Assembly: GCF_900098925.1 (NCBI RefSeq)
Contig: NZ_LT622359.1
Span: 474,152-538,151 of the forward strand
Direction of reading: 5' to 3'
DNA length: 64,000 bases
DNA from: Bacillus massiliglaciei
GTDB taxonomy: Bacteria; Bacillota; Bacilli; Bacillales; DSM-1321
Positions 35,962-52,077 of the stretch are shown here, piece by piece (the stretch's first letter is position 1; the number at the start of each line of letters is the position of its first letter). The notes below the pieces were generated by a model. It ran no database searches and was not told the DNA's origin. It was given only the letters and a program-made list of their open reading frames with translations. The translations under genes and the position numbers were made by a program.

Positions 35962-37497
35962 ATGATTATCAATCACAATATCGCAGCACTTAATACACAT
36001 CGTCAGTTGAATAGTGCTTCAACAGCGCAATCAAGTTCAATGGAGAAATTATCTTCAGGTCTTCGAATTAACAAAGCTGGAGATGACGCTGCAGGTCTAG
36101 CAATCTCTGAAAAAATGCGTGGACAAATTCGTGGGTTAGACCAAGCGTCTAAAAACTCTCAAGATGGTATCTCTTTCATTCAAACGGCTGAAGGTGCTTT
36201 AAATGAAACACATGATATCCTACAACGTATGCGTGAATTAGCAGTTCAATCTGCCAATGATACAAATACAGATGCTGACCGTGGAGAGCTTCAAAAAGAA
36301 GTTGACCAATTAGCTGAAGAAATTACTCGTATTGCAAATAACACTGAGTTCAATACTAAATCTTTATTGAACGGTGCTGTTAGTGATAGTGGTGAAAAAG
36401 CAGCTGTATTCCAGATTGGGGCAAACTCAGGTCAAAATATTACTTTAAATATTAAAGCTATGGATGCTGCATCTTTAGGAGTTGCAAGAGATGCAACTAC
36501 TGCTACAGCTACTGCTAATGGTTCTGAAATCTCAAATGTGAAATTGGGAGATACTTTAGGAGCAGCGCTTGTTGATGGAGCAAACATTACATTTAATGCA
36601 GCTGATAATACTGGTGTCAATGCTACAGGTACTTTAGATGTAAACGGAAATACAATTACAGCTGACGCAGGTGCAGCTGGTACAGCACTTAATGGTTTGA
36701 AAATTGTTTTTGCTGCAGATGATGACTCAGCAGCAGCTGCATCATTTAATGGTACTGATACAGTAACAATTACTGGAGACTGGGATAACAGTGGAACTAA
36801 TGCCCCTGCTAACTTAGCTGCACTTGAATCTCTTATTCAAGGAGCAGATGCATCCTTATCAGGTGTAACTCTTAGTGAATCAGGCTCATTTACAGCAGCT
36901 GATTTTGCTAACGCTGGAACTATTACTCTAGGTGGAGGAGCAGCGGCAAACGCAGCTGAAACTATTATTACAATTAGTGATGGCGGTTCAAATACTCAAA
37001 CTGTTACAGTAGCAGATACTGCTACAAAGGTTTCCGTTACATCTGGAGCATTCAATGGTCTATCATTCGAAGTAGGTGATGCTACTGCTCTTTCTTCTGG
37101 TGCAGATTCTATTGACCTTGATATTACAACTGTAGCAGCAACTGCGGCAACATTTGCTAGTAACGAAAAAACTGGTGATGCAGTGGCGAAAGCAGGTATT
37201 GATATTTCTTCTCAATCTGCTGCGGACACTGCGGTTACTTCAATTAACAATGCAATTGAAACTGTTTCAGCTGAGCGTTCAAAATTTGGTGCATATCAAA
37301 ACCGTTTAGAGCACACAATCAACAACCTAAACACATCTTCTGAAAACCTAACTGCTGCGGAATCTCGTATCCGTGACGTAGATATGGCGAAAGAAATGAT
37401 GGAACAAACTAAGAATTCTATTCTTTCTCAAGCAGCACAAGCAATGTTGGCTCAATCAAATTCAATGCCTCAAGGAGTTTTGCAACTTCTAAGGTAA
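35962..37497 (+). CDS. hag: Flagellin Hag1 (unspliced reading frame, 511 aa)
   Basis: Flagellin with conserved D0/D1 ends: MIINHNIAALNTHRQLNSAS, SMEKLSSGLRINKAGDDAAGLAI, and at the C-terminus LEHTINNLNTSSENLTAAESRIRDVDMAKEM. The central region (about residues 140-410) is long, Thr/Ala/Asp-rich and surface-exposed; total length is well above the roughly 300 residues of B. subtilis Hag. The last 14 codons and stop (37453-37497) appear to be the 5' end of a group I intron. Spliced mRNA would instead be 35962-37452 joined to 37831-37875, giving QANQQPQGVLQLLR as the end in place of QSNSMPQGVLQLLR. Confidence 0.93.
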   Translation: MIINHNIAALNTHRQLNSASTAQSSSMEKLSSGLRINKAGDDAAGLAISEKMRGQIRGLDQASKNSQDGISFIQTAEGALNETHDILQRMRELAVQSANDTNTDADRGELQKEVDQLAEEITRIANNTEFNTKSLLNGAVSDSGEKAAVFQIGANSGQNITLNIKAMDAASLGVARDATTATATANGSEISNVKLGDTLGAALVDGANITFNAADNTGVNATGTLDVNGNTITADAGAAGTALNGLKIVFAADDDSAAAASFNGTDTVTITGDWDNSGTNAPANLAALESLIQGADASLSGVTLSESGSFTAADFANAGTITLGGGAAANAAETIITISDGGSNTQTVTVADTATKVSVTSGAFNGLSFEVGDATALSSGADSIDLDITTVAATAATFASNEKTGDAVAKAGIDISSQSAADTAVTSINNAIETVSAERSKFGAYQNRLEHTINNLNTSSENLTAAESRIRDVDMAKEMMEQTKNSILSQAAQAMLAQSNSMPQGVLQLLR

Positions 37498-37830
37498 TGA
37501 ACGAAGGGCGTCTTATCTAGTAATGGATAAGAGTATAACTGGGTGAATTGCTGGAACTTCCTAAAGCTTCATCAACCACAACGTAACTGGAAACGGTCAG
37601 CGTGAAGGTCTGAAAATGATGAGGATGACACATGACACAATGGATAATCAGCAGCCAAGCTCCTGTTCCGAAAGGATGGAGAAGGTTCAACGACTAGAGA
37701 AAACGGTCTAAGGCAAAAAGCTATGGCTATGAATCTCGTAGGGCAGCAAATGCTGTTCGAAGTGCCCAGCTCCATGAAAACATGGATGAAGATATAGTCT
37801 ATTCTGTAGTCGAAAGATACAGTCGCAAAG
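37453..37830 (+). ncRNA. Group I intron A near the hag1 3' end
   Basis: All four conserved core elements are present in order: P AATTGCTGGAAC (37546), Q AATCAGCAGCCAAGC (37646), R GTTCAACGACTAGA (37685) and S AAGATATAGTCT (37789). P4 (TGCTG/CAGCA) and P7 (GACTA/TAGTC) pairings form. Boundaries are inferred: exon 1 ends in U (GCT, Ala), the intron ends in G (37830), and joining restores the canonical flagellin end MLA-QANQQPQGVLQLLR. There is no endonuclease frame inside. I could not place the P1 guide helix, so boundaries remain to be shown. Confidence 0.85.
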
Positions 37831-37875
37831 CAAGCGAACCAACAACCACAAGGAGTTCTACAACTTCTTCGTTAA
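37831..37875 (+). CDS. hag: hag1 exon 2 (last 14 codons and stop)
   Basis: Encodes QANQQPQGVLQLLR and TAA in phase with exon 1 after intron removal. It has no ribosome binding site of its own. The 28 bases from 37854 recur exactly at 42133-42160. Confidence 0.75.
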   Translation, partial: QANQQPQGVLQLLR

Positions 37876-37876: not shown

Positions 37877-37892
37877 TTTAGTTTTGATACAG

Positions 37893-37925
37893 GAGACTCT
37901 AGTTTTGCTAGGGTCTCTTTCTTTT
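37893..37925 (+). terminator. Flagellin terminator, copy 1
   Basis: GAGACTCTAG / CTAGGGTCTC stem followed by a T-rich tract. Near-identical hairpins lie at 42172 and 52095 after the other flagellin 3' ends. Confidence 0.9.
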
Positions 37926-39707: not shown

Positions 39708-40466
39708 TTACCCTTCGACAACTTCCCGATGTTGCATACTTTGACGGAATCTATAGGATTCTCCGTTAAGTAGGTGGATGTGCGATCGGTGCGTAAGGCG
39801 ATCAAGTAATGCAGCGGTCATTTTATCGTCGCCAAATATGTTTGTCCATTCCGAGAATTCTAGATTAGTTGTAACAATAACGCTCGCGCGTTCATAACGA
39901 CTTGAAAAGAATTGGAACAATAACTCTGCTCCAATTTTGGAGAAGGGGACATACCCTAACTCATCAACAATGATCAAATCAAATTTGAGCCACTTCTTCT
40001 CAAATGCCCCAAGCTTATGCTCCTCGTTGGCCATAAGTAATTCTTCTACTAACGCCGATGCTGTAATAAACTTAGTTTTATAACCATTTTGAATCATTTC
40101 TACCCCAAGAGCGATTGCCAAGTGAGTTTTACCAGTACCACTATTCCCCAAAAATATTAGATTTTCCTTTTTGTCTACGAATTCACCCTTAGCCATGGTG
40201 ATAAAGCGGTTTCGATTCAAGCTTGGCATTAAGCTGAAATCATAGGTATCTAATGTTTTCTGGACAGGGAACGCAGCTTGCTTAAGTCTCCTCTGTCTCT
40301 GATTTTCTTCTCTTGTTTCTAATTCTGTTTCTAGTAATGCCAATAGGTATTCTTCATAACTTAGGTTTCTTTCCTCCGCTTCTCTAGCGAGAGAGCGATA
40401 CTGTCTTCCGATTGTCGGCATTCTAAGTTGCTTTACAATATGATCTAGCATGATTTCTGCATTCAT
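39708..40466 (-). CDS. istB: IS21 helper ATPase IstB
   Basis: 252 residues of the AAA+ (DnaC-like) family: Walker A GNSGTGKTHLAIALG, Walker B LIIVDELGYVPF and the sensor block SVIVTTNLEFSEW. It helps the transposase choose and deform the target DNA. Its start overlaps the istA stop by 4 bases. The reading frame is complete. Confidence 0.95.
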   Translation of the reverse strand: MNAEIMLDHIVKQLRMPTIGRQYRSLAREAEERNLSYEEYLLALLETELETREENQRQRRLKQAAFPVQKTLDTYDFSLMPSLNRNRFITMAKGEFVDKKENLIFLGNSGTGKTHLAIALGVEMIQNGYKTKFITASALVEELLMANEEHKLGAFEKKWLKFDLIIVDELGYVPFSKIGAELLFQFFSSRYERASVIVTTNLEFSEWTNIFGDDKMTAALLDRLTHRSHIHLLNGESYRFRQSMQHREVVEG

Positions 40467-41986
40467 TTTGTCTGACCTCCAGTTAGTTGTTCATATTGAG
40501 CTACATTTGACTTTTTAACTTTATAGTCTAGCAGATTTGTAGGTGTCTTCTCTTTAGAGAGCTCGTGAGACTTCAAATGGTTATTCGTTAGCCTTTGGAT
40601 GATTTCATGCACAACTTCATAACGAAAAACTTGTGCTTCCTCAGCCTCACTCAAGGCCTGTGTTAACTTTTCCATTCCAATTTCACGATGAAGGAGGAGA
40701 AGTCGTATGAACTTTCGATCTCCAATGGCTCCTTCTTGTTCTCTCATCTTCCGATGAAAACGCCTGAACACAGCTGGAATGTCAGAAGCTTGGAAAGCAT
40801 GTGCATCACGTATCGCACGAGGCTTTTTTATCAACGCTTCTAGATAATGGTCCAATACAGTAATCATTTGATTTCGTTCATTTGAACGTAAATGTTCTGC
40901 GATCACTTGGTTTTGAGCCACAACGATCACTCGGTCGACAAAAATTTTTGCCCATACAGCTTGGCCGACATAACCACATGGGACAGAATACTGATTGGTT
41001 TCGATTGAGATTAGTGAAGTCTTGTTTACCTGACAAGAGACTAGCTTACAGGCTTCAAACCGTTGTTCAGGAAGTGGGTGAAGATATTCCTTTTCTTTAG
41101 CCCACATATCAGCGATTGTTTCTTTGGTATAAGGAACGGTTTTGCGTTCTGCCTCGTTAAAACACCAATCTTGTAAATAATCATTCAATTCATCTAGTGT
41201 CTGAACCTCCGGCTCAGGTACAAAGGCATTTCTTCTTACATAGCCTACCAATCCCTCTACACGTCCTTTTTCATTTCCAGATCTGACATTGCAGAACTCA
41301 GATTTGAATAGATAATGTGTTTGTAAGGCAAGAAATGATTCCTGTTCCAATCGGTCTCTACCTTGAAGGATTTTTACCACAGCTGTTTTTAAATTATCAA
41401 ATAGACCTTCAGTTGGAACTCCTCCAAAAAATTCAAACGCATGAACAAATCCATCAAGGAAAGCTTCCTGTTTTTCATGAAGATAAGCTCTCACAAACCT
41501 TACACGACTTGCGGAAAGCTGAATGCAAAAGAGGTAAATACGTTTCTTTCGACCCTGTAGAATGATGTCCGCCTCTCCCCAGTCGAATTGGAATTGGTGG
41601 CCGAGTTGAAAATCAAGAGGAATGAAGACTTCCTGAAGCTTTTTTCTGCGTTTCCTTACTATTTTTCGTATATTAGATTCCGAACCTTCAAAGTCATATT
41701 CATTAACTAATCTGTTATATATATTGGTAGCCGTATGTTTCTGCTTACCCCATCGGTTGAGGTCATCCTCTAACCATTGGTCAATTATTGGTAATACCCG
41801 TTTTGTTTCTTCAGAATAATCTTTAGTACCACCATAGATTCTTTGGCGTTGTATGGTTGTTGGAGCTTCCTGTTCTTTTAAATACTTACTTACTGTATTC
41901 CTTGAAATACCAAGCTTTTTAGCTATTTGTCTTTGTGATAGTCCTTCTACCTCATGTAAGAATTTGATATTATAAAATTGAGCCAT
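40463..41986 (-). CDS. istA: IS21 transposase IstA
   Basis: 507 residues; ATG 41986 is best spaced from AAAGG although the frame extends 3 codons. The N-terminal HTH (LSQRQIAKKLGISRNTVSKYLKE) binds the terminal repeats. The DDE catalytic core shows FQFDWGEADI (first Asp), LFDNLKTAV (second Asp) and NEKGRVEGLVGYVRR (Glu). It is complete, so the element may be active. Confidence 0.95.
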   Translation of the reverse strand: MAQFYNIKFLHEVEGLSQRQIAKKLGISRNTVSKYLKEQEAPTTIQRQRIYGGTKDYSEETKRVLPIIDQWLEDDLNRWGKQKHTATNIYNRLVNEYDFEGSESNIRKIVRKRRKKLQEVFIPLDFQLGHQFQFDWGEADIILQGRKKRIYLFCIQLSASRVRFVRAYLHEKQEAFLDGFVHAFEFFGGVPTEGLFDNLKTAVVKILQGRDRLEQESFLALQTHYLFKSEFCNVRSGNEKGRVEGLVGYVRRNAFVPEPEVQTLDELNDYLQDWCFNEAERKTVPYTKETIADMWAKEKEYLHPLPEQRFEACKLVSCQVNKTSLISIETNQYSVPCGYVGQAVWAKIFVDRVIVVAQNQVIAEHLRSNERNQMITVLDHYLEALIKKPRAIRDAHAFQASDIPAVFRRFHRKMREQEGAIGDRKFIRLLLLHREIGMEKLTQALSEAEEAQVFRYEVVHEIIQRLTNNHLKSHELSKEKTPTNLLDYKVKKSNVAQYEQLTGGQTK

Positions 41987-42132
41987 ATCGATCATCCTTT
42001 GTGCCTCTCTCTAAAAGTGATAGTTTGGTCACTTTCAATCATAAGAGAGGTTATCAAAATTGGAAATCATGTGGCTCATTTTTTATGTGATCGAACCCTT
42101 CAAAAGTGGCTCAATATTAAATTATCAAATAC

Positions 42133-50254: not shown

Positions 50255-50519
50255 AAATTCCCACCCCTTTTTTAAAGCTTATTATACATTATTTTATCTA
50301 TCCCAAGGTGGAAGAAATAGGGGGGAGTATACAAACTAATGCTTTCCTATTGATTGACTGTTTTTCAATCCTCCATTTTTTTATGATTTCCTAATGTTTT
50401 GGAACGAGTTCTTTCCATTATATTTGGTTTTCCTAATGGTGCATCTTCACTTTCTGCAATTTCCTTGGGTCACATAGGGTTCTCGGTTAGGAAGATTTTT
50501 GATTTTGGAGGTTGCTTTT
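50255..50519. other. Gene-free stretch up to the hag2 break
   Basis: AT-rich, with repeated TTTCCTAATGG/TTTCTAATGG-type words (also at 49319) and no sigma-D promoter or flagellin leader. At 50,519/50,520 it joins flagellin codon 14. The sequence here has no similarity to the hag1 leader, so the missing hag2 5' end was replaced, not just mutated. Confidence 0.5.
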
Positions 50520-51599
50520 CGTCAGTTGAATAGTGCTTCTAATGCACAATCTAAATCAATGGAGAAATTATCTTCAGGTCTTCGTATCAACAAAGCTGGA
50601 GATGACGCTGCTGGTTTAGCAATTTCTGAAAAAATGCGTGGACAGATTCGTGGGTTAGACCAATCTGGAAAAAATGCTCAAGACTCAATATCAATGATTC
50701 AAACTGCAGAAGGTGCATTAAACGAAACTCACGACATCCTTCAACGTATGCGTGAACTAGCTGTACAGGCTGGAAATGATACTAATACTACTGATGACCG
50801 CGGCGAAATCCAAAAGGAAATAAATCAATTAACTTCTGAGATTAACCGTATTGGTAATACTACTGAATTTAATACTCAAAAATTATTAAATGCTTCATCA
50901 GGTACTCAAGTAGGAGGCACACCAGCTGTTCCGGGGACACCAGCCACAACATTAACAAATCAGAATATGACTGGAAGCGTTACAGGCCTTACTGGTAACG
51001 TAACAGCTAATGGAACATTTACAGGAGCAGCAGATGCTACCTTAACTGTTAAGTGGGATGATACCAATAGTAAATGGCAAACATCTACTGATGGTACTAA
51101 CTTTTCTGACATGACAGGGACATCAGCAACTATTGATGGTGTTACAGTAGATGTAAGTGGTCTTACTGGTACTGCAACGGCTGATGGAACTTTTACCGTT
51201 GATTTAACTGCTGCTGTTGCGGGTACACCAGCAACTGGTGCAAAATCTCAATTTACAACACAAATTGGTGCTAATGAAAATCAAACCATGACGCTTGAAT
51301 TTGAAGACATGCGTGCGGCAGCTTTAGGAATTACTGGTACAGCAGGAAATACTGGTTTTACATCAGCAGATACAGTTACAGATGGTACTGATAATGTTGC
51401 AAATGAAGCGGCATTAGATGTATCTACAGCAGCAAATGCTGGTAACGCTGTTACTGCAATTCAGAGTGCAATTGATAATGTATCAGCAGAACGTTCTAAA
51501 TTAGGTGCTTACCAAAACCGTCTAGAACACACAATCAACAACCTAAACACATCTTCCGAAAACCTAACTGCTGCGGAATCTCGTATCCGTGACGTAGAT

Positions 51600-51963
51600 T
51601 ATGCTTTAGCTGCTTAAGCAGTGACAAGCACAGTCGTCCTAGCTGGTAACGGCTAGAGATTATTATCGGGTGAATTGCTGGAAACCCCTTAGAGCTTTTC
51701 TTGCCACAACGTAGTTGGAAACGACAGGCGTGATGGTTTGAAAAAAGAAAAGATTGGGCAATCAGCAGCCAAGCTCCTGTCTCGAAAGAGTGGAGAAGGT
51801 TCAACGACTAGGATAGACCATCTAAAGGCTAAGCTCAAGATGATGAAATCCATAGGTGAAACAATGGATCATCAGCATTGTGAATCCGAAGTGCCCGACC
51901 CCTACTAGATTACTAGAGGGTGAAGATATAGTCTGGTCATTTATGAAAGTAAATGTTCGCACG
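51600..51963 (+). ncRNA. Group I intron B in hag2
   Basis: Core elements: P AATTGCTGGAAAC (51673), Q AATCAGCAGCCAAGC (51760), R GTTCAACGACTAGG (51799), S AAGATATAGTCT (51923). Exon 1 ends in U (GAT, Asp) and the intron ends in G (51963); joining gives RIRDVD-MAKEMM, exactly the uninterrupted hag1 sequence. Length is 364 nt and there is no endonuclease gene. Unspliced mRNA reads YALAA and a stop, so splicing is needed for a full-length product. Confidence 0.9.
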
Positions 51964-52077
51964 ATGGCGAAAGAAATGATGAACCAAACTAAGAATTCTA
52001 TTCTTAGCCAAGCTGCTCAAGCTATGCTTGCTCAAGCAAACCAGCAGCCTCAGGGAGTTTTACAACTTCTTCGTTAA
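51964..52077 (+). CDS. hag2 exon 2 (C-terminal 37 residues)
   Basis: MAKEMMNQTKNSILSQAAQA followed by MLAQANQQPQGVLQLLR and TAA: the conserved flagellin D0 C-terminal helix. It lacks a ribosome binding site and is only meaningful after splicing to the upstream exon. Confidence 0.85.
   Translation: MAKEMMNQTKNSILSQAAQAMLAQANQQPQGVLQLLR

Follow-up and report, generated by a model that had tools for sequence, protein, structure and literature searches.

The hag1 locus of Bacillus massiliglaciei raises the question of how a group I intron can survive in a gene that ranks among the most heavily translated of a bacterium. Flagellin is made in large amounts from a highly translated message, and bacterial ribosomes follow the polymerase; early rounds of translation therefore meet a message that is still unspliced. 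In the window considered here, the whole analyzed stretch of 64,000 nucleotides, hag1 is one intact open reading frame of 511 codons that begins at 35962 and closes with QSNSMPQGVLQLLR and a stop codon at 37495-37497, and its message appears, judged from the sequence, to encode a complete flagellin with or without intron removal. The reading favored here, with a probability of roughly 0.85, is that the intron carries a spare C-terminus: unspliced mRNA would give flagellin with the intron-borne end, spliced mRNA would give flagellin with the exon 2 end, and both forms would be used. The features concerned are listed below, with a caret marking a splice site.

35962..37452, plus strand: hag1 exon 1, flagellin up to ...QAMLA, ending in GCT, the exon strand of P1
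37453..37830, plus strand: group I intron of 378 nt (RF00028), with boundaries placed by P1, the 3'-junction pairing and comparison with intronless genes
37453..37497, plus strand: copy 1, the putative intron-borne replacement C-terminus QSNSMPQGVLQLLR plus stop, in loop L1; based on the sequence, 114/120 junctions among the matches listed, purifying selection and its unpaired state in the local consensus fold
37506..37509, plus strand: internal guide sequence GGGC, partner of exon/intron GCU^C in P1 with U.G at the splice site, in 108/108 aligned sequences
37824..37836, plus strand: hairpin spanning the 3' splice site (37824-37826 with 37834-37836), in which pair -7/+6 covaries
37831..37875, plus strand: exon 2 (copy 2), the native C-terminus QANQQPQGVLQLLR plus stop, based on the sequence and on selection at codons 8-14
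37891..37919, plus strand: terminator-like hairpin with a T run after exon 2, weak evidence by itself
51600..51963, plus strand: hag2 group I intron, sister to that of hag1, inserted at RDVD^MAKEM (RF00028, 92.6 bits), starting in frame with YALAA and a stop codon (51600-51617)

Intron core and splice sites of hag1

The Rfam covariance search that the original prediction had called for returned a match to the Group I intron family (RF00028) at 37479-37822, with 81.3 bits against a cut-off of 50 bits, an E value of 4.3e-19 and coverage of model positions 1-253 of 253, which places the core of the hag1 intron in this family. Together with the P1 pairing and the covariation at the 3' junction described below, the search upholds the boundaries that had been proposed, 37453 and 37830, for an intron inserted 14 codons upstream of the end of hag1. 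The open reading frame list contains no sense-strand frame of 60 aa or more within the intron. A direct sequence check also agrees with the two 45-nt ends as first described, each with 14 codons plus stop and with 31/45 bases identical between 37453-37497 and 37831-37875. Between 35800 and 38100, the only terminator-like site lies 3' of the second C-terminus, although one such site was found against a shuffle mean of 1.0.

For the 5' splice site, 108 distinct sequences, each made up of the last 15 exon bases and the first 105 intron bases, were folded with RNAalifold. Unprompted, the program returned a four-pair P1 in which exon GCU and the intron C pair with GGGC, with all four pairs present in 108/108 sequences and U.G at the splice site; the hag1 intron thus shows the splice-site U.G pair in P1 that marks group I introns. 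Since the exon search required an Ala codon (GCN), the G and C of GCU were not free observations, whereas the other six P1 bases (the U, the first intron base and the guide) were. The exon ends in GCT in 109/109 intron-bearing sequences, where only the T is a free observation, compared with 48/76 distinct intronless genes. The stop codon of copy 1 precedes the guide sequence by 8 nt in hag1 and by 7-12 nt in 108/108 sequences. Two other placements were rejected. A 5' splice site 18 nt later, where AUGCCU could form six pairs with GGGCGU in the window, would add six residues, and AUGCCU is unconserved in the alignment while GCU^C is conserved. The P1 of the Rfam drawing, starting at 37479, contains several non-standard pairs and was rejected on the same grounds.

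At the 3' junction, pair -7/+6 is C-G in 56 sequences, G-C in 50 and G-T in one (n = 107), with 10 and 11 changes on its two sides and 11 joint changes on the tree. The two inner pairs of this hairpin were set by the search pattern, and the next outer position, -8/+7, is unpaired in 42/107 sequences. The swaps between C-G and G-C at site 2, as the hag1 insertion site is called here, occur along with the Ala codon of the exon. The last intron bases are AAG in 108 sequences and GTG in one (n = 109); the final G was demanded by the search pattern and is not a free test. The pairing of exon 2 with the guide region is named P10, and inspection by eye found no convincing conserved pairing of this kind.

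The sister site in hag2, called site 1, follows the same pattern, with GAU^U facing AGUC. The guide AGUCGUC and the first intron base U occur in 69/69 sequences, as does the exon end GAU (GAY was demanded by the search), and two of the four P1 pairs differ on both sides between the two sites. At its 3' junction (51956-51971), an analogous stretch reads UUCGC-ACG^AUG-GCGAA, with GGC/GCC in one relative. The intron core and the splice-site pairings are supported directly by sequence, and we infer that splicing would take place in vivo.

The duplicated C-terminus in related introns

A scan of public genomes with a 3'-junction pattern, which required the exon 2 junction sequence, yielded at least 117 stretches, and searches with the Rfam model added further loci. 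Among the matches listed, hag1 included, there are at least 126 distinct 3' junctions, comprising 114 with a 14-codon copy plus stop, six without and six cut by record ends. The copy thus occurs in 114/120 testable junctions among these matches, hag1 being one of them, far beyond chance. Five of the six junctions without it look like relics (L062, L080, L114, L115 and L157) and have neither the guide sequence nor an adjacent exon 1 in the stretch seen. The sixth, L228 (~870-1300), is the one clear exception, with exon 1, guide and core present and copy 1 frameshifted; an intact-looking intron of this kind indicates that the copy is not strictly needed. In L114 (6602-7276, Neobacillus mesonae), a small open reading frame, a guide-less intron remnant and an orphan exon 2 come after an intact flagellin end, an arrangement that could represent a snapshot of intron decay.

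Two differently drawn samples give the same picture. Among loci L001-L057, picked by the Rfam model alone, 27/27 site-2 introns found have the copy; the other 30 of the 57 rows begin just after an Ala codon and represent an uninterrupted flagellin end behind a site-1 intron. The second sample consists of 90 loci chosen by similarity to hag1 from the top of a longer list, 30 picked automatically and 60 by hand from the rows that came after; 88 of them gave 91 rows, one gene being present twice, and one of the two loci without a row is L228. Of the resulting 90 distinct flagellin genes with a complete end, 76 are intronless and 14 intron-bearing, and the copy is present in 14/14 of the latter, hag1 included. 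It has a length of 14 codons at 109/111 places tested by length alone, in site-2 introns of 359-402 nt (109 sequences among the matches listed). In hag1 and its relatives, the 5' end of the intron therefore encodes a homologue of the next exon. Judged by record titles, carriers belong to at least 28 genera, including Heyndrickxia, Metabacillus, Neobacillus, Sporosarcina, Fictibacillus, Oceanobacillus, Planococcus, Virgibacillus and Brevibacillus; the matches listed also contain one record labelled as a Phycisphaerales MAG (L083) and one as Pseudomonas (L102, incomplete). On this comparative evidence the copy belongs to the conserved features of a Bacillales intron family, a point that goes beyond the original prediction, as does a sister intron at another flagellin site with a different in-frame tail.

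Intronless flagellins indicate which end is native. They generally end 14 codons after MLA, most commonly in QANQQPQGVLQLLR (43/76 distinct genes), so exon 2 is taken as the native end and the upstream copy as intron-borne. The two ends differ chiefly at residues 2 and 5. Residue 8 is alike in both copies in 106/107 sequences and residue 14 in 104/109, the remainder being K/R in two, Q/R in two and one row with an incomplete exon 2; both residues vary among intronless flagellins too.

Selection was assessed in the site-2 set of 109 unique sequences. Folds and guide comparisons used 108 of them, one having fewer than 120 upstream bases, and selection estimates used 107, one more being without a complete exon 2; these 107, which are not independent of one another, were filtered for a 14-codon copy and not for its composition. 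The search patterns fixed exon 2 codons 1-6 and codon 7, so conservation there is no result and was not counted. For copy 1, pN/pS is 0.20 overall, 0.38 in codons 1-6 and 0.093 in codons 7-14 (n = 107; rough bootstrap 5-95% range 0.057-0.139). On a tree of the intron core built without the copy, codons 7-14 underwent 203 codon changes versus 19 amino-acid changes, and codons 9-13 underwent 132 versus one. Leu-13 is Leu in 107/107 sequences and uses all six Leu codons, while codons 1-6 are only moderately conserved. In exon 2, codons 7-14 have a pN/pS of 0.16. Copy 1 and its own exon 2 are identical at 28.61/42 positions, against a mean of 28.48 and a maximum of 28.93 when exon 2 is shuffled (1000 shuffles); this equality gives no signal of gene conversion, and the likeness of the two ends is therefore not due to recent conversion. 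Both the copy and the selection on it are supported directly by sequence. The earlier claim that the intron brings a usable replacement C-terminus gains from these results, with mostly silent changes in the copy, residues 8 and 14 mostly the same and no sign of conversion.

The position of copy 1 in L1, adjoining P1, and the near invariance of CAA at codons 1 and 11 would fit conservation of the copy for RNA structure, such as an extended P1, with protein coding only apparent. This interpretation is scarcely tenable, because the local consensus fold of 108 sequences leaves the whole copy unpaired (it covers the first 105 intron bases only, with distant partners outside the fold), 171/240 nucleotide changes in codons 7-14 fall at third positions, and the length of 14 codons is itself preserved.

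It might also be supposed that the intron is dead or lies in a 3' untranslated region, with copy 1 as the sole real C-terminus and exon 2 as a fossil, since hag1 has an intact 511-aa frame ending at copy 1 and relics of intron plus exon 2 without an adjacent exon 1 do exist. However, the protein sequence of exon 2 has been kept, with 153 codon changes versus nine amino-acid changes in codons 8-14 on the intron tree. The invariant P1, the fixed GCT at the exon end compared with intronless genes, the covarying pair at the 3' junction and a core score well above the cut-off likewise speak against a dead intron, which is very unlikely. Protein-level selection on exon 2 makes most sense if splicing occurs, and splicing must then matter too; selection on copy 1 makes most sense if the unspliced message is translated.

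A further possibility is that splicing selects between two flagellins whose C-termini differ in function, for example by temperature. The differences between copy 1 and exon 2 at residues 2 and 5 would suit such a switch, and flagellin introns with temperature-dependent activity, for which a regulatory role has been suggested, are described in PMC4853749. Nevertheless, residues 2-6 are the least conserved part of copy 1, with 31 amino-acid changes at residue 5 alone, and QSNQLPQGVLQLLR, a common copy-1 end, also occurs in one intronless flagellin (L229, 1/76). The selection looks like selection for sameness, and a switch of this kind is considered quite unlikely.

Under the favored reading of a spare C-terminus, a group I ribozyme with no large open reading frame separates the last 14 codons from the rest of the flagellin gene, and the 5' end of the intron, where loop L1 connects the splice site to the guide sequence, would serve as a substitute last exon of 14 in-frame codons plus stop. 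Before or without splicing, ribosomes would read exon 1 and the intron-borne end, produce a full-length flagellin and halt short of the ribozyme core. With the stop codon 7-12 nt upstream of the guide sequence, terminating ribosomes could delay P1 formation, and each message may see translation and splicing in competition. Once the intron has been removed, nearly the same end would come from the native exon 2. Both messages would then be translated and both proteins would be present in filaments. The intron would thereby be spared the cost that a slow ribozyme would impose on a highly translated mRNA when transcription and translation are coupled, and tolerance to the unspliced message would be a selected trait.

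A sister intron with a different in-frame tail

This C-terminal region occurs at two flagellin loci of the B. massiliglaciei genome, hag1 and hag2, the latter split by the sister intron; the genome also has two matches to the intron family. Around 50499-50540, the start of hag2 lacks the beginning found in hag1 (MIINHNIAALNTH...), and its coding sequence starts at RQLNSAS after dissimilar sequence; hag2 may be a recombined or dead copy, and hag1 thus the main flagellin. Between both genes, at 39708-41995 on the minus strand, lie two open reading frames of 252 and 510 aa, which we take to resemble an IS21-type transposase pair.

At the RDVD^MAKEM site, 69 distinct introns each start with a short in-frame tail and a stop codon. 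The tail is YALAA in 52 of them, and the other 17 comprise YDLAAA (four), YTEAA (two), YVLAA (two) and nine singletons. Its last residue is Ala in 68/69, with 28 codon changes versus one amino-acid change. The site-1 tails thus have the C-terminus ending in (L)AA that defines ssrA-type tags; the tmRNA tag of the host is GKQNNNLAFAA, and YALAA is also how the ssrA tag of E. coli ends. In 64/69 sequences, 4-5 base pairs are possible between the Ala-Ala codons of the tail and the bases that follow the stop, and a small hairpin around the stop codon may account for part of the conservation of the tail. In B. subtilis, ClpXP degrades ssrA-tagged proteins, as described in PMC5506225, and the YALAA tail may mark the truncated flagellin for ClpXP.

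In 48/69 cases, the gene with the site-1 intron also has a site-2 intron further downstream. A tree without outgroup splits the site-1 and site-2 cores completely (69 versus 108, support 1.0), and each intron class therefore probably arose once. In a tree rooted with a poor outgroup of 10 other introns, which included an empty sequence and four introns whose orientation is unproved, the site-1 and site-2 clades have supports of 0.88 and 0.63, the latter a modest value for a single site-2 clade. Tentatively, and with somewhat less than an even chance of being right, the sister introns could represent opposite answers to translation before splicing: the late-site intron would rescue the unspliced message through a functional C-terminus, and the earlier-site intron would condemn it through an ssrA-like YALAA that directs the truncated flagellin to ClpXP. 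If this is true, the intron-encoded peptide would be part of the adaptation of the intron to a highly translated host gene.

Relation to known introns and implications

For Geobacillus stearothermophilus and thermophilic Bacillus, group I introns in flagellin genes (Hayakawa and Ishizuka 2009, 2012) are cited in PMC3984707 and PMC4853749, where they are assigned to group IA2 with temperature-dependent activity. Like the hag1 intron, they are group I introns in Bacillales flagellin genes; the descriptions in these citing papers, through which the comparison was made, mention no C-terminal copy. The original prediction had pointed to fungal mitochondrial introns that bring a replacement gene end, and this likeness is real: introns in the Tremella fuciformis mitochondrial genome are reported to begin, at their 5' end, with a duplicate of the exon that follows them (PMC7315562). 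These introns are the closest analogue of the hag1 intron, since there, too, the downstream exon has a homologue encoded at the 5' end of the intron and annotation software misses the true exon. However, they are fungal and mitochondrial, 2.1 and 2.2 kb long in the two cases given with a size and variable within one species, and their duplicates are explained as gene-fragment exchange by mobile introns (PMC7315562). In contrast, the hag1-type introns are bacterial, 359-402 nt long and spread over at least 28 genera, with measured purifying selection on the copy.

A published case of a ribosome stop in an intron before its core offers a further likeness, although as described it involves the stop only, whereas the hag1-type stop follows a complete substitute C-terminus. 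IStrons, which combine a group I intron with an insertion element, have been suggested to yield different protein variants (PMC4853749); there the variants arise by alternative splice sites, whereas in hag1 they would arise from the intron-borne end, in an intron without a 60-aa sense-strand frame. A search of the open-access literature (titles, abstract starts and term counts) returned no account of a bacterial intron bearing a substitute exon under selection. It is already known that flagellin genes contain group I introns and that introns can duplicate the next exon; within that search, what appears new is the bacterial intron whose substitute exon is under selection.

Such introns can escape ordinary annotation, since a gene of this kind reads as intact even when unspliced. 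As a bacterial intron with a substitute exon under selection, the hag1 intron would also allow the price of delayed splicing during coupled translation to be measured directly. The spare end would account for the persistence of a slow ribozyme in a gene that is among the most heavily translated in bacteria and whose unspliced message is read by early ribosomes.
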